IMG/VR virus record: IMGVR_UViG_3300048834_000280
Span: 1 to 32,049 of that record
Strand: one strand, 5' to 3'
DNA from: a virus
Length of the DNA: 32,049 nucleotides
Each line of letters starts with the position of its first letter. The stretch's first letter is position 1. Of the stretch, positions 1 to 16,479 are shown one piece after another. The notes beneath the pieces were generated by a model. The model was not told where the DNA came from and did no database searches. It worked only from the letters and a program-made list of their open reading frames with translations. A program made the position numbers and the translations under genes.

Positions 1-274
1 ACCCCAATTTTGGCCGGGAATTTTTGGAGGGACTCCACGCCCGAACTCGATCCACGTCCGAACTAATACCGCTCCAGCCCATGGCCCAGGGACTCCCGCC
101 GCCGCCTCACCGGGGGGGGCGGTCGGGCCAGGGCCGATGTGACACGGTATGCAAGGCGTGTGCCAGGCCCTGCAGTGGCGGCGGCGCGACACAAAAGCCC
201 GATGCCCGGCAATGGGGCTAGAAGGCCCGTGGCGCCATTCCGCCGCCCTGGTGTACCCTAGCCCCTTAACATAG

Positions 275-347
275 TTATCCCAGGCGCCTACGACTATCCA
301 CTGCCCCTGTCATAGGTGCATCCACAGGTTATCCACATTGTGGATAA
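275..347. other. DnaA-box cluster, candidate replication origin
   Basis: Positions 329-337 read TTATCCACA, the strict DnaA box, and 339-347 read its exact reverse complement, giving a 19-bp perfect palindrome with one central base. Looser boxes with a TCC core lie at 275-283, 294-302 and 318-326, each matching at 7 of 9 positions or close to it. DnaA binding to such clusters is established for bacterial origins and some plasmids and phages. The window shows no phage DnaA or Rep gene, so host DnaA would be the expected binder. Function is inferred. Confidence 0.6.
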
Positions 348-437
348 CACACATCTGGTTACAATGTAGGGTTAGTCCCAGTTGACCGTCGGCGGTACGG
401 GTGGGCCGACGGTGCCCGACCGTCCCCTACCGTAGTG

Positions 438-1094: not shown

Positions 1095-1110
1095 TGTTCC
1101 ACGTGAAACA
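1095..1110. promoter_or_regulatory. parS-like centromere site
   Basis: The 16 bases TGTTCCACGTGAAACA match the conserved bacterial chromosomal parS consensus TGTTNCACGTGAAACA at every position. The site fills the gap between the stop codon at 1088 and the ribosome binding site at 1111-1116 of the next gene. ParB of many bacteria binds this sequence and spreads from it, which is established. No ParA gene and no stand-alone ParB partition gene is visible here. The ParB-like domain at 12437 is fused to a methyltransferase and is not an obvious parS binder, so host ParB is the likely partner by inference. Confidence 0.8.
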
Positions 1111-2657: not shown

Positions 2658-2804
2658 ATGACCATCGATCACGATGCACACATGCACCTTGACCCATCGA
2701 ACCGGCCCCGGTGGATGGAGCCATCCCCCTACACCCGCAGGCGCACGGACCCGAAGCCCCCATTGTGGCTCCGCATCGCCCGGTGGGTTTGGGGGTGGCT
2801 CTGA
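2658..2804 (+). CDS. Tiny Trp-rich protein (48 aa)
   Basis: An AGGAG-type ribosome binding site (TAGGAGCCACCT) precedes the ATG at 2658, just downstream of the promoter at 2592-2621. The frame runs 48 codons and its TGA overlaps the ATG of the next gene (TGATG). The product has a His/Asp-rich start (MTIDHDAHMH), a Pro/Arg-rich middle and an amphipathic Trp-rich end (WLRIARWVWGWL) that could lie on a membrane. I recognise no family. Position, ribosome binding site and the coupled stop/start all argue for a real gene. Confidence 0.6.
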   Translation: MTIDHDAHMHLDPSNRPRWMEPSPYTRRRTDPKPPLWLRIARWVWGWL

Positions 2805-3199
2805 TGCCCCGCATCCGCCCCCTCGAGACCTACCCCTATCGGCAATTCCTGGCGGTATTCACAAAGGTAGCCGAAACCCGGCAGCCCTTCCTAATCGCGT
2901 GCACCCGGCCGCAGGCCGCATCCCTCCGAGGCGAACTCTACGCCTTCCGTCGGGCCTGCGAGAACCAAGCCCAATCGGCCCAGGTTATGGGCATTGACGT
3001 GGCGCAGCTGCGCGACGTGGCCTTCCGCATCGTAGCCGAAGGGCTGGAGGCGTGCCATCAATCCAGCCTGCAAGGGCCGGCGTTGATCGAGGCGGCGCTC
3101 GGAGGCACCCCGCTCGCACCGAAGACAGCGGCCCAGCTAGCGCTGGAACGGCTCCAAGGTATGGGCCTACAACCAGGGGCACCCGATGAGCGGGAATAG
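2804..3199 (+). CDS. Hypothetical early protein (131 aa)
   Basis: The ATG at 2804 overlaps the stop of the tiny upstream gene. The product starts MPRIRPLETYPYRQFLAVF and is mostly helical by composition, with an Arg/Ala/Gln-rich centre and an acidic end. No domain is recognised. It overlaps the next gene by 14 bases, which suggests translational coupling. Confidence 0.7.
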   Translation: MPRIRPLETYPYRQFLAVFTKVAETRQPFLIACTRPQAASLRGELYAFRRACENQAQSAQVMGIDVAQLRDVAFRIVAEGLEACHQSSLQGPALIEAALGGTPLAPKTAAQLALERLQGMGLQPGAPDERE

Positions 3200-3497
3200 G
3201 CCATTCGCCCAGGTATCGGCCTATCCGGCCGGCTTCCTCGCGGCCATCCAGAATGGTGGAGGGGTGTTCTATGCCGCTGACCTGCCATGGACACCGACCA
3301 CTTCGGCGAAGCGGTTCCGCCAACTCCTTGCCTTGCTACGCAAGCAACCAGGGCACCCGGCCTGTGCAAACGCAGGCCATCGCTGGCGGGTTGAGGTTAC
3401 GGCCAAGGCCCTCGTCACGTCAATGAACCAGCGCGGGGTGCCTGCAGCCTACCCGCATGGGCTTTTGATCGAGGCTGCGCTGGAAGGACAAACATGA
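3186..3497 (+). CDS. Hypothetical early protein (103 aa)
   Basis: The ATG at 3186 lies inside the end of the previous gene and the stop overlaps the next ATG. The 103-residue product is basic, with a central helix-like segment SAKRFRQLLALLRKQPG and two Cys/His positions (about 60-66). I recognise no family; a small DNA-binding protein is possible but unsupported. Confidence 0.65.
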   Translation: MSGNRPFAQVSAYPAGFLAAIQNGGGVFYAADLPWTPTTSAKRFRQLLALLRKQPGHPACANAGHRWRVEVTAKALVTSMNQRGVPAAYPHGLLIEAALEGQT

Positions 3498-4333
3498 GCA
3501 CGGACAAGGTGCGCGAGGCGCTGGCGAAGATCCGCGAATACATCGAGGGCAACTCGGTCTACGGCCGTCCGCACATTCTGGAGGATTTTCTGCCCATCGT
3601 GGAAGAGGCCGCAGCCCGCGAAGCGTTATCTGCGCAGCCTGCAGAGCCGGTGGCGTGGCGCTATCACTCACCCAGCACTTGGCGCCTTGCCAGCAAGCCA
3701 GCGCTGCAGGCTTACACCGACATTTTGCCGGGCTTTGAGCAGGAGCCGCTGTTTGCCACGCAGCCTGCGCCGAGCGTGCCAGATCTGCCGGACCCAAATC
3801 AGCTTGAATCTTGGCGCACTGCCGCAGACGAGCTGTTGCGCAATCCGCAGCACATGCCAACTATCCGGTCAGCAGCGTTTCAACTTCAGAACGCTTACCT
3901 GTTTGCCCGCAAGCTCGCAGCCCTCGCATCCCAGGCCGAGAAACACGCTGCCGAGCTAGCCAAGCTGCGGCAGGGTGAGCCGGTGGCCGGGTGGCGACTA
4001 CTGAAGGACACCACCTACGCAGAGCGCTCTTGGCCTGAAGATGCGAGCCACGAAAACGGCTGCTATTCAAACACATGCTGCCACTGCGGGCGCGCGTTCA
4101 CGGGCCACAAGCGCAGACCGTCTTGCAAGGCGTGTAGCGCCGCCTCCACTCCACCAGTCCAGCCCCTGCGTGAGGCGCTGCAGCCGCTGAGCGATGCAGA
4201 CTTCCTGCGGTGCGCTGATGAGAATTTCCCTGACTGGCGGGTTGACATTCAGGAACGCTTTGTAACCGAATTAGGCCACGCAATCGAACGCCTCATCACC
4301 GAGCGCATGAGCGCAGCAAAGGAGACGAAGTGA
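3494..4333 (+). CDS. Ead/Ea22-like protein with zinc-ribbon-like motif (279 aa)
   Basis: The start is set by GGAAGG shortly upstream and by the overlap with the previous stop. The N-terminal half has the sandwich typical of Ead/Ea22-type accessory proteins of temperate phages: a helical part (1-48), an AEPVAWRYHSP block, then LFATQPAP, and a second EPVAGWRLL block near residue 162. Around residues 196-217 there is CHCG...CKAC, a possible zinc ribbon. Such proteins vary widely between phages and have no settled function. The gene and its two followers have visibly lower GC than the rest, which suggests a cassette acquired as a unit. Confidence 0.65.
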   Translation: MSTDKVREALAKIREYIEGNSVYGRPHILEDFLPIVEEAAAREALSAQPAEPVAWRYHSPSTWRLASKPALQAYTDILPGFEQEPLFATQPAPSVPDLPDPNQLESWRTAADELLRNPQHMPTIRSAAFQLQNAYLFARKLAALASQAEKHAAELAKLRQGEPVAGWRLLKDTTYAERSWPEDASHENGCYSNTCCHCGRAFTGHKRRPSCKACSAASTPPVQPLREALQPLSDADFLRCADENFPDWRVDIQERFVTELGHAIERLITERMSAAKETK

Positions 4334-5228: not shown

Positions 5229-5810
5229 ATGGCAAAGACCCCTGTTGAGATCAAGACCGTCACAATGGATGACGGCCGTACCGTCGAGTTCAGCGGCAAG
5301 AAGCGCCTGGACAAGAGCATCATCATCGAAGGCGACACCGTCAAGGTCCGCCTCGACTTCGTGAATGGCGAAACCCGCACCTTCACCGTGCCCCCGAGCC
5401 TCCTGCTCCAATGCGCAGGCCACGGCGCCAGCCAGAAGCTGGGCGACGAGATCTCCGATGTCACTGACATTGAGGACGCGATCGAGGCGATCGACCAGCT
5501 GATGGCCCGCCTGGAACAGGGCGAGTGGCGCGTGGCCCGCGAAGGCGGCACCTCGATGGCCGGCGCCTCGATTCTGGCGAAGGCCTTGGTGGAAGTCACC
5601 GGCCAGCCGATCGCCGTGGTGCGCCAGTACCTCACCGGCCTGGACAACAAGACCAAGGCGGCCCTCCGCGCCTCGGCCGAAGTCGGCCCGACGGTGCAAC
5701 GGCTGGAAGCCGAGAAGGCAGCCCGTGCCGCCGAGCGTGGCAAGTCGGCCCCGACCGTGGACACCGCCTCCGTGCTGGCTGGCCTGAAGGGCGTTGCCGT
5801 TCCGGCCTGA
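5229..5810 (+). CDS. Hypothetical early protein, paralogue of gene at 1403 (193 aa)
   Basis: AAGGAG lies just before the ATG. The N-terminal 70 residues look like a small beta-rich domain (VEIKTVTMDDGRTVEFSGKKRLD...). From about residue 60 on, the protein aligns with the product of the gene at 1403: both have EWR, then GLDNKTKAALRASAE and a basic Ala-rich linker ending in VDTASVLAGLK. The gene is flanked by two look-alike promoters and followed by a strong terminator, so it is its own transcription unit and may be highly expressed. Family and function are unknown to me. Confidence 0.85.
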   Translation: MAKTPVEIKTVTMDDGRTVEFSGKKRLDKSIIIEGDTVKVRLDFVNGETRTFTVPPSLLLQCAGHGASQKLGDEISDVTDIEDAIEAIDQLMARLEQGEWRVAREGGTSMAGASILAKALVEVTGQPIAVVRQYLTGLDNKTKAALRASAEVGPTVQRLEAEKAARAAERGKSAPTVDTASVLAGLKGVAVPA

Positions 5811-5998: not shown

Positions 5999-6319
5999 AT
6001 GCCACGCAAACCCCCCGAGACGTTAAATCGGCTTGACCGGAAGATGCACCGTCAGCTGGAAGACTACGTTCTGGCGAACTATGTAAAAGAGGCGACGACC
6101 GATGTCGCCTTTGCCAAGATGGCTGAGGAGGCCCTCGGCTTCCCAGTGACAAACCATAACGTCGCGGGAGCCCGCGAGATGTTCGACATCCCCTCGACGC
6201 GCTTCGCCGTCCGCGAAGAAGGCGACATCCCCTCCATCCTTCGCCGCCTTAACGCCCTTGAACAGCGAGTTCAAGTCTACATCGACGGCTGCTGCAAAGA
6301 TCCGAGGAGCCCCAAATGA
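5999..6319 (+). CDS. Hypothetical early protein, possible DNA binder (106 aa)
   Basis: TAGGAG lies upstream of the ATG. The product starts with a basic stretch (MPRKPPETLNRLDRKMHRQLEDYVLAN) and continues with a block resembling a helix-turn-helix (VAFAKMAEEALGFPVTNHNVAGAREMF, about 38-64), which is close to the way recognition helices of phage regulators look. A coiled segment follows near the C terminus (ILRRLNALEQRVQVYI). A DNA-binding regulator is therefore plausible but not proven. It is the first gene of its cluster and overlaps the next by ATGA. Confidence 0.7.
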   Translation: MPRKPPETLNRLDRKMHRQLEDYVLANYVKEATTDVAFAKMAEEALGFPVTNHNVAGAREMFDIPSTRFAVREEGDIPSILRRLNALEQRVQVYIDGCCKDPRSPK

Positions 6320-6543
6320 GCAAGGGCAAATGGAACGGCGGCCCCCCGCCAGCTGTGGGCTGGTGGCCAGCCTCCCGTAATCGAGTCTACGGCCCCTATC
6401 GCTGGTGGGACGGGAAAATTTGGTCCCTCCCGGCGTGGCGCGGGGATTCCCTTGAGACCGTCGCGCAGTATGCCGCTACCCCTTCGGAGAACCAAAAAGG
6501 AATCTGGTGGCGCTACTGGTCCAAGGGGAGGGCGATGCCATGA
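6316..6543 (+). CDS. Small Trp-rich hypothetical protein (75 aa)
   Basis: The ATGA overlap with the previous gene fixes the start. The product is very rich in Trp, Gly and Pro (WNGGPPPAVGWWPASRN, YRWWDGKIWSLPAW) and resembles small phage proteins of unknown role with repeated GWWP/RWWDG turns. No catalytic motif is seen. It overlaps the next gene by ATGA. Confidence 0.7.
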   Translation: MSKGKWNGGPPPAVGWWPASRNRVYGPYRWWDGKIWSLPAWRGDSLETVAQYAATPSENQKGIWWRYWSKGRAMP

Positions 6544-7055
6544 CCCTCTCCCTCACCGACCTCATTGCCAAGTCCAAGCTTGCCGTCGAGCTAACCGAGG
6601 CAGCGAAGAAAGCCAAGGCCTCGGCCAAAAAGGCCAAGTCCCCGCAGGCGGCAGCCGAGGCCCTCGAGCAGGCGCAGGAAATCCAAGCCCGCATTGACTG
6701 GCGCTCGCAGACCCTGGTCTTCCGCCTCATCAGGTGGGAATGCGCCTGCGGACACAGCGGCACCCGGCCGGATGGCCTATTCATCTTCCAGGAGCACGCT
6801 CGGATGGCCAACTCCTACCGCTTCATCCGGCCAGTCGAAGGCGGCTCGATCGACCTCCCCCGTCGGGTGCAGACTCTGACCGAGATCGTCAGCCTCTGCA
6901 TTGCCTGTTCTTCTGACTCGGAGTTCCGCCTTCCCTTCGTCGAGCCACCTCGCCGGCTGCCCCCATCTCCAGCTCGGGAGGGCCTCGGCCCCTACGTTCA
7001 GGAGTTCCGCCACCTCACAACCCCTATCCTTGAGGAGAACGACGATGGAGAGTGA
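6540..7055 (+). CDS. Hypothetical protein with helical N terminus and Cys pairs (171 aa)
   Basis: The ATG at 6540 overlaps the previous stop; an earlier in-frame ATG at 6507 lies inside the previous gene and is less likely. Residues 1-60 form a long Ala/Lys-rich helix, possibly coiled coil. CACG near residue 65 and CIAC near residue 122 could form a zinc-binding site at a distance. The C terminus is Pro-rich. I recognise no family. Confidence 0.65.
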   Translation: MTLSLTDLIAKSKLAVELTEAAKKAKASAKKAKSPQAAAEALEQAQEIQARIDWRSQTLVFRLIRWECACGHSGTRPDGLFIFQEHARMANSYRFIRPVEGGSIDLPRRVQTLTEIVSLCIACSSDSEFRLPFVEPPRRLPPSPAREGLGPYVQEFRHLTTPILEENDDGE

Positions 7056-7830: not shown

Positions 7831-8054
7831 AGTGGCTCTCCCGCTTGTTCAAGTCCCCTCACCGGCGCATTCGGCTCCGCCGTGCCCTCTGTGACACCTT
7901 GCAGTATTCCATCGAGCTGACTCACCAGATCGAGACCCTCCAGATTGAGGCCGAGGAGATCAAGCACCAAATTACCAACCTGCAGCAGGCCATCCGAGAT
8001 GCCGACCTCGCATGGGCTACGCAGGGGGTTGACACGGGGGTTTCGGCCGGGTAG
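7827..8054 (+). CDS. Small coiled-coil protein (75 aa)
   Basis: The ATGA overlap with the previous gene decides the start. After a basic N terminus (MKWLSRLFKSPHRRIRLRRAL) a likely coiled coil spans about 24-62 (QIETLQIEAEEIKHQITNLQQAI). The amphipathic basic start could contact membrane or nucleic acid. The promoter for the next gene overlaps the end of this reading frame. Confidence 0.6.
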   Translation: MKWLSRLFKSPHRRIRLRRALCDTLQYSIELTHQIETLQIEAEEIKHQITNLQQAIRDADLAWATQGVDTGVSAG

Positions 8055-8057
8055 AAT
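8029..8057 (+). promoter_or_regulatory. Consensus sigma70 promoter
   Basis: A perfect TTGACA (8029-8034) and TAGAAT (8052-8057) are separated by 17 bases. GGCCGGG lies directly upstream of the -10 box (8045-8051). The promoter starts inside the end of the previous gene and has its start site about 20 bases before the ATG at 8087. Confidence 0.8.
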
Positions 8058-8086
8058 CCGCCCATTACCCCCACCAATCACCGCCC

Positions 8087-8290
8087 ATGTCCCGCCCTCC
8101 CAAAGCCGAAGCCCGCCGCCGAGTGGATGTTTACCTCCCCGAGTCGGTGCATGCAGCCCTCACCATGCTGCTATTCTCCAGCGCCGAAGGCCGGGTGCCG
8201 CACGGCGCGTGGTCGGCGTTTTTCGAGACCCTCGCCCGACAGGCCCTCGACCGGGTGGCCACCGCTCAAGCAACCAAGGAACCAGTATGA
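8087..8290 (+). CDS. Ribbon-helix-helix-like regulator candidate (67 aa)
   Basis: The product has a basic start followed by RRVDVYLPESVHAAL, the usual beta strand and first helix of ribbon-helix-helix proteins, then a second helical part (WSAFFETLARQALDRV). The length fits an MetJ/Arc-type dimeric regulator. It is the first gene behind a consensus promoter, so self-control is plausible. No strong ribosome binding site precedes the ATG. It overlaps the next gene by ATGA. Confidence 0.6.
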   Translation: MSRPPKAEARRRVDVYLPESVHAALTMLLFSSAEGRVPHGAWSAFFETLARQALDRVATAQATKEPV

Positions 8291-8553
8291 CCCCCGAAGA
8301 TACCGCACGCATCCAGGCCACCCGCGCCAAAGTCCTCGCCGACCCGGCCTGGTCCAACACCCCCGAGGGCCGAGCCGAACTCACCCAGGCCATCGCCATC
8401 CTTCGCTCCGACCGAGTGTCTGCGTCCATCGGTTCCAGTGCCTCCCGCACTGCGAGAGCCGAGGCCGCGAAGCCCGTGGACACCGGCGCGGTGCTTGCCA
8501 ACCTCAAGGCACTCGGCGCCGGGCTGGCCTCGGGCGTGGTGAAGGGGGCCTGA
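8287..8553 (+). CDS. Hypothetical protein sharing a C-terminal tag (88 aa)
   Basis: The ATGA overlap with the previous gene decides the start. The N-terminal half (TARIQATRAKVLADPAWSNTPEGRAELTQAIAILRSD) looks like a small helical domain. The end, a basic Ala-rich linker and VDTGAVLANLKALG, resembles the ends of the products at 1403 and 5229 (VDVSAILAG, VDTASVLAG). The shared tail on otherwise different proteins suggests a common binding partner. Function is unknown. Confidence 0.7.
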   Translation: MTPEDTARIQATRAKVLADPAWSNTPEGRAELTQAIAILRSDRVSASIGSSASRTARAEAAKPVDTGAVLANLKALGAGLASGVVKGA

Positions 8554-12436: not shown

Positions 12437-13771
12437 ATGCGCCCCAAATCCGCCGCCGAAATTATCGTTCCCCCCGGCCGTCAGCGCCAAGCCTTCGACG
12501 GTCCAGCCCTGCTGGAACTAGCCCAGTCGATCAAGACACACGGGCTGTTCCACGCAATCCAGCTACGCCAGGACGGTCAGACCCTCGTCTCGGGCGAGCG
12601 CCGCCTCCGGGCCATCCGAGAGCACTTGCTCCCCTTCGGGCACCGGATCATGTATAACGGGGAGAATCTCCCCATCGGCTTCATCCCCACGGTCGAAGTT
12701 TCCTCCGACGACGCGCTCGCGCTCGAGGAAATTGAACTCCACGAGAACCTGATCCGCAAAGACCTGACATGGCAGGAACATGCTGAAGCCACAGCCCGGC
12801 TGCATAACCTGCGGCAAGCACAGAAGGTCGCCGTAGGCGGGGTGCCGGTTCCGCAGACCTTCGCCGACACCGCCCGGGAGATTGTCGGCCCCGACGCCAA
12901 CGCCAACGACCAGTCCACAGTCCGGACTGAAGTCCTCGTCGCTGCCCATATGGACAAGCCCGAGGTGGCCAAGGCCCCGGACCTGAAGTCTGCCTTCAAA
13001 GCCCTCAAGCGGATCGAGGAGGCCCAGCGGAACCGGGACCTCGCGATTGCCGTCGGGGAGACCTTCTCAGTTGGGGATCACAAGATCTTCAATGCCAACT
13101 GCCTCACTTGGATGCTGGACCCTCAGTGGCATGAGAAGTTCGATGTCATTCTGACTGATCCCCCCTATGGCATGAACGCCCAGGACTTTGGAGACGGGGC
13201 CGGTCGACTCGAAGGCATCGACCATTCCTACGACGATTCCTATGAGGCCTGGAAATCCCTCATGGCCCAGTGGTCTGTTCTCGCTTTCACCGTCGCAAAG
13301 CCGCAAGCACACGCCTATGTCTGGTGCGACATCGACAACTTCCACGAGCTACGCGAGATGATGCGCAAGGCCGGCTGGTACGTCTTCCGCACCCCCCTCA
13401 CGAACTACAAGCAAAACAGTGGCCGGGTGCCCCTCCCAGACGAAGGCCCCCGTCGGCAATCCGAGTGGTGCCTCTACGCAATCAAAGGGCATAAGCGGGT
13501 CAACTACATCGCCTCGGACGTGATCGTCACGGGCGCCGACGAACAGCTCTCCCACGGCGCCCAGAAGCCCGTCGCCCTCTACGACGATCTCCTCCGCCGT
13601 TCTGTTAAACCGGGCGACTGGGTACTCGACACCTTCGCGGGCACGGGTACAATCCTCGCGGCGGCCCATCCCCTCAAGTGTGTGGCAGTGGCGGTCGAAC
13701 AGAATCCGACCTACTACGGGATCTGCCTACAGCGGCTGGATGGCCTCGAGAAGCAAGGGAAGCTGATATGA
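12437..13771 (+). CDS. ParB-like nuclease domain fused to DNA methyltransferase (444 aa)
   Basis: The N-terminal ~140 residues carry the ParB/Srx fold signature: SGERRLRAI (about 55-63) and ENLIRKDLTWQEHAEA (about 103-118). The C-terminal part is an amino-methyltransferase: motif IV TDPPYG at 240-245 comes before motif I DTFAGTGT at 398-405, an order typical of beta-class N6-adenine or N4-cytosine enzymes. It probably modifies phage DNA, for example against host restriction; no cognate endonuclease is visible nearby. ParB-methyltransferase fusions are common in phages. The target sequence is unknown. Confidence 0.9.
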   Translation: MRPKSAAEIIVPPGRQRQAFDGPALLELAQSIKTHGLFHAIQLRQDGQTLVSGERRLRAIREHLLPFGHRIMYNGENLPIGFIPTVEVSSDDALALEEIELHENLIRKDLTWQEHAEATARLHNLRQAQKVAVGGVPVPQTFADTAREIVGPDANANDQSTVRTEVLVAAHMDKPEVAKAPDLKSAFKALKRIEEAQRNRDLAIAVGETFSVGDHKIFNANCLTWMLDPQWHEKFDVILTDPPYGMNAQDFGDGAGRLEGIDHSYDDSYEAWKSLMAQWSVLAFTVAKPQAHAYVWCDIDNFHELREMMRKAGWYVFRTPLTNYKQNSGRVPLPDEGPRRQSEWCLYAIKGHKRVNYIASDVIVTGADEQLSHGAQKPVALYDDLLRRSVKPGDWVLDTFAGTGTILAAAHPLKCVAVAVEQNPTYYGICLQRLDGLEKQGKLI

Positions 13772-13929: not shown

Positions 13930-14336
13930 CCCCCCCCAATCCGTTCGACGCCCGGCTCGTCTTCATGGACGGCCCTCTCGCCCTCTACGTCCACGAAGCC
14001 TCGTCTCAGGAGCTCCTCGATGCCTACGCCCGTATCGGCCGTTACCTCACCATCGCCGGCCAGCAGCTCGACGCTGAAGCTGTCCGTAAAGCCAACCGGG
14101 CCGTGCCCGAGCCCCCTGATGATAGTGTCGGAGGCTCCGGGACCGAAGGAAGTGGAGGCTGGAGCTCCCATAGCATCGACGGCCGCGTGGCTCCTGTCCG
14201 AATGTATGAAAGAGGCGGAGCTTCGCCTGAGCGCATTTACTTCGACGGTCGGGAGGGAATTGCCCCCAGGAGCGGACCCGGGCAACTGGATCGCCAGTAC
14301 GATCAAAGCTCGAACCCCCGCCCACCGACTGATTAA
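13926..14336 (+). CDS. Hypothetical protein overlapping the polymerase gene (136 aa)
   Basis: A good AAGG-type site (CACAAGGAAAGCGCG) precedes the ATG at 13926. The first 60 residues (MTPPNPFDARLVFMDGPLAL, then AYARIGRYLTIAGQQLDAEAV) look like a real helical protein. From about residue 64 on, the frame runs through the start of the polymerase gene and its composition turns Gly/Ser/Pro-rich, as for an out-of-phase reading. Either the protein really has this long overlapping tail, or its frame is joined to the polymerase frame by a +1 shift near 14112-14121. Confidence 0.5.
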   Translation: MTPPNPFDARLVFMDGPLALYVHEASSQELLDAYARIGRYLTIAGQQLDAEAVRKANRAVPEPPDDSVGGSGTEGSGGWSSHSIDGRVAPVRMYERGGASPERIYFDGREGIAPRSGPGQLDRQYDQSSNPRPPTD

Positions 14337-16479
14337 CGGCAAGTACGTCCTCCCACCCCTAGCCGCTGGCCGGGACCTCCTTCTCCAGGAGGTCGATCTA
14401 TGCAAGCCCACAGTCGTGGTCGCAATGGGCAACATTGCCCTCTGGGCCCTCACCGGCAAATGGGGAGTCCGAAAGTGGCGATCCTCTATCCTCCAAGGCG
14501 AAGTCAATGGGCACCGATTTAAAGTTATCCCAGTCGAAACCCCAACCTCGGTACTCCGAGAGTGGCCCCGCCGCGGTCTACTCGTCCACGATCTGCGACG
14601 GGCAAAAGTGGAACTTGGCCGAGGGCCAGAGGTTTCAATCCCTAAATATCAATTCATTATCCGCCCCAATTTCCAACAAGCTTCGGCGTGCCTCCGTGAA
14701 CTCCTCGCCCGGCTGGATAATTCCTCCAGCCTTATCCCCCTTGCGGCTGACATCGAAACGCGAGCAGGCCATACTGCTTGCTTGGGTATCGCTTGGTCGC
14801 GGCTGGAGGCAATATGTGTGCCTTGGATGTGTGTGGAACGTGCGGAAGGTTATTGGAACGTCGAGGAAGAACTGGAGCTTGTTCTCTTCACTAATCAGAT
14901 CCTAACGCATCCAAAGGCCTCGGTGACCTGGCAGAACGGCGCATATGACCACCAGTACGAGCACCGATGGCATTTCATCCAGCCTAATCTTGGTTGGGAC
15001 ACAATGCTGGCCCACCACAGCATGTTTTCCATTAGCCCGAAAGGTCTCGATCACCTATCGTCCCTGTATTGTGACTATCATGCCTACTGGAAAGATGATG
15101 GTAAGCTATGGGACCCCTCAATCCCGGAAGAAGATTTTTGGACCTACAACTGCGAGGATTGTGTTAGAACCTTCGAGATTCGAGAGGCTGAAGAAGCAGC
15201 CATCCAGCACCTATCTCTCGACTGGCCAAAGCTTCCCTCCGTCGTCGCCTTTCAACACGCCCTCCAGCCCGCCGTCGTACGCATGATGCTCCGGGGCGTC
15301 CGCTCCGACGACCGCACCCGATCCGAGATGGGCAGAGCTCTGCTCGCCGCTTCCCAGCGCCTCCAAGGGGAGCTAACCCAGCTCTGCGGAGCCGAGCTCA
15401 ACATCAACTCCCCGAAGCAGATGCAGGAGTTCTTCTACGAAACGCTCCGGCAGACGCCGGTGAAGAAGCGGCGCCCCGACGGCACCTGGGGGCCGACCTG
15501 CGACGATGACGCCCTCCAAACGATCGCCCTGCGGGAGCCCGTTCTCCGCCCCGTCGTCGCCCGTATTCAGGCCCTCCGCTCGGGCGGGAAATTCCTATCT
15601 ACCTACGTCCAGATGCCACGGGACACGGATGGCCGGATGCGTTGCTCCTACAACGTGGCCGGGACAGTCACCTATCGCTTCAGCTCGTCCGAGAATGCTT
15701 TTGGCTCCGGGGGAAACCTTCAGAACATCCCAGTCGGCGACAAGGACGAAGACGCCCTGATCCTCCTTCCCAATATCCGAAAGCTTTTCCTCTTCGATGA
15801 AGGCTACACCGGATTCGATCTCGACGGCGACTCCGCTGACCTCCGCATTGTAACTGGCGAGTCGGGGTGCCGCCAGATGCAGGCCTACTTCGCCGCTGGC
15901 GCTAAGCCCTACGTCGAGATCGCGAAGGAGTTCTACCGCGACCCCTCCATCACCAAGCACCATCCCTCTTACAAACGCATGAAAGCCCTATGCCATGGAA
16001 CGAATTACGGAGGTGAATCTGCCGGACTCGCTGGACGAGTCGGATTGCCTGTCCATGACGTGGATCGAATCCAGTCCTGGTATTTTGGAATGTGTCCTGA
16101 AATCAAGCGATGGCAAGACGATATTAGAGACCAGTGTGACCGCCGTGGATATATTGAAAATCCTTTTGGCTACAGACTCTGGCGATGGGATCGCACTAGT
16201 CGTAAGCTACATAATGAATTCCTCGCGTGGATCCCACAGTCTTCAGTAGGGATACTGATTAACAAGGCCCTCCTGGCCATCGACCAATCCCTGCCGTGGT
16301 GCCAGCTCCTGCTCCAGGTCCACGATTCCCTTACCGGCCAGTACCCAACCCACATGGGGGACGAGGCGAAGCGGCAGATCCTCCGGGCAGCGGAGGTGGA
16401 GATCCCCTGCAAGTCGGGCACCATCATCGTCCCGATGGGGCTTAAGACCTCGCCCAAGTCCTGGGGGGATTGCGAGTGA
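14119..16479 (+). CDS. UDG-like domain fused to family A DNA polymerase (786 aa)
   Basis: The start at 14119 is chosen because the UDG-like homology begins there (MIVSEAPGPKE); the frame is open further upstream but lies out of phase with the previous gene. Residues 1-155 resemble family 4/5 uracil-DNA glycosylases, but the usual HP of the last motif is replaced (PVETPTSVLR, 138-147). Proofreading residues are D211/E213, N273/D277 and Y343/D347. Polymerase motif A has D569 and D574, motif B is K622...H626...Y630, motif C is QVHDS (733-737). The replicative polymerase of the phage is a safe call; glycosylase activity is doubtful. Two stretches (about 14480-15230 and 15940-16260) have lower GC than the rest. 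Confidence 0.9.
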   Translation: MIVSEAPGPKEVEAGAPIASTAAWLLSECMKEAELRLSAFTSTVGRELPPGADPGNWIASTIKARTPAHRLINGKYVLPPLAAGRDLLLQEVDLCKPTVVVAMGNIALWALTGKWGVRKWRSSILQGEVNGHRFKVIPVETPTSVLREWPRRGLLVHDLRRAKVELGRGPEVSIPKYQFIIRPNFQQASACLRELLARLDNSSSLIPLAADIETRAGHTACLGIAWSRLEAICVPWMCVERAEGYWNVEEELELVLFTNQILTHPKASVTWQNGAYDHQYEHRWHFIQPNLGWDTMLAHHSMFSISPKGLDHLSSLYCDYHAYWKDDGKLWDPSIPEEDFWTYNCEDCVRTFEIREAEEAAIQHLSLDWPKLPSVVAFQHALQPAVVRMMLRGVRSDDRTRSEMGRALLAASQRLQGELTQLCGAELNINSPKQMQEFFYETLRQTPVKKRRPDGTWGPTCDDDALQTIALREPVLRPVVARIQALRSGGKFLSTYVQMPRDTDGRMRCSYNVAGTVTYRFSSSENAFGSGGNLQNIPVGDKDEDALILLPNIRKLFLFDEGYTGFDLDGDSADLRIVTGESGCRQMQAYFAAGAKPYVEIAKEFYRDPSITKHHPSYKRMKALCHGTNYGGESAGLAGRVGLPVHDVDRIQSWYFGMCPEIKRWQDDIRDQCDRRGYIENPFGYRLWRWDRTSRKLHNEFLAWIPQSSVGILINKALLAIDQSLPWCQLLLQVHDSLTGQYPTHMGDEAKRQILRAAEVEIPCKSGTIIVPMGLKTSPKSWGDCE

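Follow-up and report, generated by a model that had tools for sequence, protein, structure and literature searches.

An exact chromosomal-type parS site in a phage genome, a putative loading site for host ParB

The stretch of DNA analysed here (the window) is a single IMG/VR record of 32,049 bases. Its early genes run rightward and encode a PD-(D/E)XK nuclease, MazG, a Sak4-like AAA protein, a ParB_N-methyltransferase, a UDG-like part joined to DNA polymerase A and a primase/helicase-like protein; the late genes, the major head protein among them, run leftward. The UDG-like part is the N-terminal part of DNA polymerase A (14020-16479), with a Pfam match (UDG) to the uracil-DNA glycosylase superfamily. 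Another contig, G001 (20,689 bp), is 99.9% identical to the window, carries the site discussed below and reaches 4.8 kb further left, where it encodes the portal and the large terminase. Since this near-identical contig continues beyond the left end of the window, the record is probably a genome fragment. The features that matter most are given below; L142 (also L003) is a diverged relative of the phage, IMG/VR 3300048587_000258, of 9,076 bp.

329-347, no strand: inverted pair of DnaA-box-like sequences, TTATCCACA, in the noncoding leader
770-799, + strand: sigma-70-like promoter TTGACG-18-GATAAT, by consensus scan only, with the site about 300 bp further downstream
837-1088, + strand: 83-aa ORF upstream of the site, without family match and without blastn counterpart in L142 (E 1e-6)
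1095-1110, + strand: parS-type site TGTTCCACGTGAAACA, an exact consensus match, with the same 16-mer at another place in L142/L003; putative host-ParB loading site
1112-1129, + strand: AGGAGCCCATCATGCAAA, a direct repeat forming the leader (ribosome-binding site and start) of ORF 1123-1338 and starting one base after the site
1123-1338, + strand: 71-aa ORF downstream of the site, without family match and without blastn counterpart in L142
1397-1891, + strand: 164-aa gene common to the window and L142 (74-75% identity), used as comparison anchor
12437-13771, + strand: fusion of a CTPase-type ParB_N domain with an N6/N4 DNA methyltransferase, by Pfam

Taken together, the genes for DNA polymerase A, the primase/helicase-like protein, the Sak4-like protein, MazG, capsid, portal and terminase suggest a virulent phage, and 40 library scans covering 26 distinct proteins of the phage revealed neither an integrase nor a repressor. 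The segregation of a circular prophage, one of the roles proposed in an earlier note on this DNA, is therefore left without support.

The 16-mer at 1095-1110 has no mismatches to the parS consensus TGTTNCACGTGAAACA, in which all but one of the 16 positions are fixed. With an order-1 Markov model and both strands considered, 2.0e-5 exact matches are expected by chance in the window and 5.1e-6 in L142. Both the full-length match asserted in the earlier note and its description of the chance as vanishingly small thus hold. For comparison, one published survey reports detecting chromosomal parS with TGTTTCACGTGAAACA at up to two mismatches, citing Livny et al. 2007 (PMC10197239). When the window was scanned with TGTTNCACGTGAAACA at up to three mismatches, no second site appeared, just the opposite-strand reading of 1095-1110; the phage has one site as far as seen. 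We met no parA or canonical parB adjoining the site. Some 37 kb of a genome that may be incomplete are covered in all, and the one ParB-type protein found there is the ParB_N-methyltransferase fusion. The nearest genes are the two short ORFs at 837-1088 and 1123-1338, for which Pfam and PHROGs gave nothing at the limits used.

The site occupies the gap between these two ORFs, and the AGGAG of the downstream one begins at 1112, one base past the site, just as had been noted before. The 18-bp sequence AGGAGCCCATCATGCAAA is repeated exactly, at 826-843 and at 1112-1129, heading both ORFs, which suggests that the leader was duplicated and the site set directly before the second copy. A promoter consensus scan found 3 matches (1.2 in shuffles), and a weaker promoter-like match on the - strand, at 1107-1078 (9/12), overlaps the parS-type site. 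The DnaA-box-like pair at 329-347 falls in the stretch where L142 has its parS; TTATCCACA itself has no counterpart in L142. Since 12 of 100 shuffles also contained two TTWTNCACA, the number of boxes is not significant by itself, and just their inverted arrangement appears to be of note. Elsewhere in the early region, two of the genes among 1397-1891, 5229-5810 and 7945-8553 look homologous (34% identity), and a third ORF in this set has, by eye, a similar end peptide (SVDVSAILAGIGR, TVDTASVLAGLKG and PVDTGAVLANLKA); these ends are perhaps a common C-terminal docking motif.

Searches of IMG/VR for relatives of the early region returned the same two records each time, and L142 is the single diverged relative that spans the region. 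Its proteins are 74-75% identical to that of gene 1397-1891 and 70-73% identical to that of gene 2804-3196, and it has the identical 16-mer. We compared the two leaders by blastn, as whole-region MAFFT misplaced non-homologous parts. The leaders match in patches (1-133, 393-420, 531-548, 607-677 and 687-699 in window coordinates), and the L142 site maps near window 133-393. The stretch of the window with the site and the two short ORFs has no blastn counterpart in L142, and around the 16-mer itself scattered bases agree between the two flanks, nothing more. The order of elements is also opposite, as far as consensus matches alone can define it: in the window the site comes about 300 bp after the sigma-70-like sequence at 770-799, whereas in L142 it lies at 6139, about 400 bp upstream of a promoter-like match at 6537-6565. 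In other words, the 16-mer has been kept exactly while its place has shifted, which fits a loading site for a sliding ParB clamp better than an operator. The earlier note had proposed conservation among variable flanks as a check, and in this one relative the site passes it. By its exact match to the consensus, its presence above chance and its apparently selected conservation, the latter seen in a single diverged relative, the site very probably belongs with chromosomal-type parS. Among 11 IMG/VR loci related by DNA polymerase A, several of which stop short of the early region, the site was found at up to two mismatches in G001 alone.

Among isolated phages, Stenotrophomonas phage BUCT555 has a capsid protein 49% identical to that of the window phage and the same early/late layout. 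Five parS-like sites occur in it when one mismatch to GTTYCACGTGRAAC is allowed (positions 79, 473, 2371, 37885 and 39381), with 0.026 expected, and three of the five have the exact core GTTCCACGTGGAAC. Three control patterns gave no match in BUCT555 at up to one mismatch and 0, 3 and 3 matches at up to two. With the ends of the record joined (it is marked linear), the sites span 3,926 of 39,440 bp, and the probability of such clustering under a uniform distribution is 5e-4. The sites thus stand at both ends of the record. According to the feature table, three of them are in genes and two between genes. No ParB_N domain was matched in BUCT555. More distant phages gave less. In MW202489, whose polymerase is 46% identical, an intergenic gap of the early region contains TGTTTCACGCGAAACC, which has two mismatches and is no more than suggestive; Mx8 has one core at one mismatch, within a gene; and no 14-mer core was found in Mel-JY34 or OP596615 even with two mismatches allowed. 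A tblastn search of 50,697 phage records with an early gene (window 3494-4330) found no relatives in named phages.

Bacterial genomes gave three loci with relatives of the capsid protein, the nearest in Chromobacterium subtsugae (66%), followed by a Pseudomonadales MAG (62%) and then a Silicimonas MAG (50%). As a weak guide, this is consistent with a host among the beta- or gammaproteobacteria. With one mismatch allowed, the parS motif is present in each of these genomes. Silicimonas alone has an exact full 16-mer, in the T form; the Chromobacterium and Pseudomonadales genomes have the 14-base core, and their copies of the full 16-mer differ at one base, in most cases an outer one. The core GTTYCACGTGRAAC is present in all 21 Chromobacterium-family genomes, at 3-11 copies each, whereas the reversed control occurs in one genome only. 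The matches listed for this family include the core of the window site, GTTCCACGTGAAAC.

Beyond this lineage, parS is strongly over-represented in phages. With 16-base queries, padded to 30 letters, we found exact parS forms in 286 (TGTTTCACGTGAAACA), 147 (TGTTCCACGTGAAACA) and 58 (TGTTCCACGTGGAACA) of 50,697 phage records; these counts are not independent events, because many of the records are close copies from a single lineage and the lists have members in common. Two reversed-palindrome controls gave 0 and 0 records in the same collection, and the core-swapped control TGTTTCAGCTGAAACA gave five, all of them Erwinia phages with the match within an RNA polymerase gene. Among the matches listed are phi29-like Bacillus phages, Listeria and Lactobacillus myophages, phages of Gordonia, Microbacterium, Arthrobacter, Clavibacter, Pseudomonas, Stenotrophomonas, Vibrio and Roseobacter, and microviruses. 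Pseudomonas is the commonest name for the C-bearing forms (36/147 and 17/58 records) and is outside the ten commonest names for the T/A form. Mycobacterium phages abound in the collection (441 records in one search) yet are outside the ten commonest names for every form. Ten records of Klebsiella phages also hold TGTTCCACGTGGAACA; eight of them are 346-358 kb long and the other two 86 and 110 kb, and in each of the eight records with annotation the match falls within a gene. As enterobacteria are not known to have a chromosomal ParABS, part of the parS matches in phages can be put down to chance.

From the rows listed, we hand-picked 20 carriers, which are therefore not a random sample, and the exact site was present in each of them. 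None of the 24 records examined (these 20, the window, G001, G002 and MW202489) contains the reversed control, even with one mismatch allowed. PF02195 (ParB_N) was detectable in a single carrier, Microbacterium phage Quhwah, and in none of the other 19. The fetched sites lie outside annotated genes in 14 of the 20 phages (three of the 14 belong to one genus) and within genes in four (DrRobert, phi29, Quhwah and MW202524); in P100 the site overlaps a gene start, and in XD2 the stretch has no annotation. The arrangement varies. There is a site in the direct terminal repeat of phiPsa374, two in the terminal repeat of Vibrio phage phi 3 and four within about 1 kb in the B. cohnii phage vB_BcoS-136. 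vB_PpuM-NoPa (PP496415), a phage of Pseudomonas putida KT2440, has its sites at 59638 and 65513. In the Stenotrophomonas phages BUCT627, 626 and 548 (Bixiavirus), the site adjoins the ribosome-binding site of the next gene, as it does in the window. Gordonia phage Woes (L146) has parS at 3501-3516 and at 3922-3937, each inside a longer perfect palindrome (gggcag-parS-ctgccc and cgctcga-parS-tcgagcg). Carriers in IMG/VR amount to at least 120 loci; in 49 of the 120 listed, the first site is wholly outside ORFs of at least 100 aa, compared with 17.3 expected at random positions. Of 44 listed IMG/VR carriers of at least 30 kb that were searched, 39 have no ParB_N match and five have one match each, one of the five falling below the cut-off. 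We give more weight to the named phages because IMG/VR may contain contamination by host chromosomes.

Several known systems offer a background for these observations. The closest is phi29 (Salasmaviridae), whose chromosome is reported to be captured into spores by the host Spo0J/ParB (Meijer et al. 2005, via PMC9437464), and which thus provides a precedent for host ParB acting on a virulent phage. Like the window phage, phi29 carries a host-type parS, with exact TGTTCCACGTGAAACA in both; phi29 is virulent and has no detectable ParB_N of its own. It has four exact sites, three of them within genes according to the feature table. However, phi29 belongs to the terminal-protein phages, has 19 kb of DNA and infects a spore-former, its published benefit being spore entrapment. 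The window phage, of the PolA/terminase kind and unrelated to phi29, has one site seen and a host that is probably a non-sporulating proteobacterium. With the centromere-like parS of bacterial chromosomal ParABS, the window site shares the motif, including the GTTCCACGTGAAAC core found in Chromobacterium-family genomes; unlike it, the site is viral, in a single copy and with no parA or parB recognised next to it. The logic of a parS and its ParB on a phage genome is also that of phage-encoded ParABS (mycobacteriophage RedRock and relatives, P1 and N15). The RedRock type is described as extrachromosomal prophages of temperate phages with their own ParA and ParB, and RedRock itself as having two parS loci with eight copies each of an 8-bp motif (PMC7157519); the window phage differs in that neither parA nor a canonical parB was recognised next to its parS. 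Finally, phages of Alphaproteobacteria are reported to carry sites for host CtrA, in connection with lytic deferment (PMC9437464). There a host cell-cycle DNA-binding protein is co-opted through intergenic or terminal-repeat sites, as ParB would be here, although CtrA is a transcription factor and ParB a segregation clamp.

What, then, is the site for? That it is a chance match in one phage lineage and functionless seems to us most improbable. Collections of millions of contigs do contain chance 16-mers, and the in-gene matches in Klebsiella phages illustrate this; yet a site expected 2e-5 times in the window recurs in L142 at a non-homologous place, where the expectation is 5e-6, and control palindromes are nearly absent from phages. 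It is also very improbable that the ParB_N-methyltransferase of the phage itself (12437-13771) is the cognate binder, with the site serving for targeting or self-marking. Although this protein, 11 kb from the site, holds the only PF02195 match in the window, and fusions of ParB-CTPase folds to N6/N4 methyltransferases are reported to be frequent in phages (PMC12704722), the fusion and the exact site do not travel together, and we set this candidate aside for that reason. MW202489, with its near-site at two mismatches, and Mel-JY34 each have an open frame of comparable length that matches ParB_N and no exact parS, and for most carriers the reverse is true, ParB_N being absent from 19 of the 20 picked ones and from BUCT555. 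Moreover, PDB ParB structures align with residues 8-127 of the fusion protein only, the alignments ending between 67 and 127, and we saw by eye no counterparts of G170, K171, S172 and R173, the ParB residues described as contacting parS (PMC7383237).

Two further explanations accept host ParB as the binding protein and assign it another role. Bound at the site as a roadblock or as a spreading clamp, ParB could act as a silencer that lowers the expression of early phage genes, for example slowing infection in some host states. This we find unlikely. The idea of an operator, also raised in the earlier note, draws on the ribosome-binding site of ORF 1123-1338 next to the site, an arrangement repeated in BUCT627, 548 and 626, and on the weak - strand promoter-like match (1107-1078, 9/12) that overlaps it, and it is kept alive by the reported repression of adjacent promoters by ParB at parS3 and parS4 in P. 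aeruginosa (PMC5521831). The operator idea is weakened, because site and promoter-like sequence do not stand in the same order in both relatives, the site being about 300 bp downstream in the window and about 400 bp upstream in L142; in addition, three of the four sites in phi29 and three of the five in BUCT555 are within genes. Phage copies of parS could alternatively be decoys that titrate ParB, and with it SMC loading, off the host origin, halting segregation and division to the gain of the phage. Many phage copies per cell would indeed exceed the 3-11 motifs of a host genome, and several phages have 3-4 sites. With one site per genome in the window phage, as far as seen, and with a virulent phage killing its host in any case, we consider a decoy distinctly unlikely.

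The reading that we prefer is that the site is a loading site for host chromosomal ParB by which phage genomes would be positioned or shared out. Taken as a whole, we hold this account to be somewhat more probable than its negation. That the site is functional and selected for loading host chromosomal ParB is, judging from the comparisons above, very probable; that positioning or partition of phage genomes through the host ParABS is the main benefit is an evenly balanced proposition. We observed the identity of the site with parS, its conservation despite a moved place, the enrichment of parS in phages, the scarcity of ParB_N among carriers and parS in the bacteria that harbour capsid relatives, and from these we infer that ParB binds, spreads and benefits the phage. 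After injection, host ParB-CTP dimers would use the site to load as clamps and would then slide along kilobases of phage DNA. The ParB-coated genome would then be treated by host ParA and ParB-associated factors much like the origin region, that is, tethered to the nucleoid and positioned. If the host divides ahead of lysis, as in a deferred or slow infection, each daughter cell would get a phage copy. The recruitment of host ParB suggested in the earlier note is thus retained as probable: the site is very probably a true parS, conserved in L142, and BUCT555 has a cluster of parS-like sites; the prophage role is what finds no support.

The occurrence of parS in a phage is not new as such, since phi29 has four exact sites. 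What looks new is its spread over phages that lack a detectable ParB and infect non-sporulating hosts; we found no survey of host-type parS across phages in the literature searched, which mostly does not cover subscription papers. It is tempting to speculate that a host parS without a ParB is a common trait, acquired convergently by virulent phages and microviruses across several phyla, which would exploit the host ParB clamp, and hence ParA or SMC, to place their genomes, to have them inherited by daughter cells or as a means of evasion. Hosts that form no spores would be included, and phi29 would be one case of a wider strategy. We regard this generalisation as equally open to being right or wrong. 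If it is true, use of the bacterial centromere machinery extends to virulent phages of hosts that do not sporulate, and the case of phi29 is no curiosity confined to spore formers. Imaging based on parS and ParB ChIP-seq would be open to disturbance by infecting phages, and parS would be a sequence tag for phages that may depend on host cell-cycle proteins.
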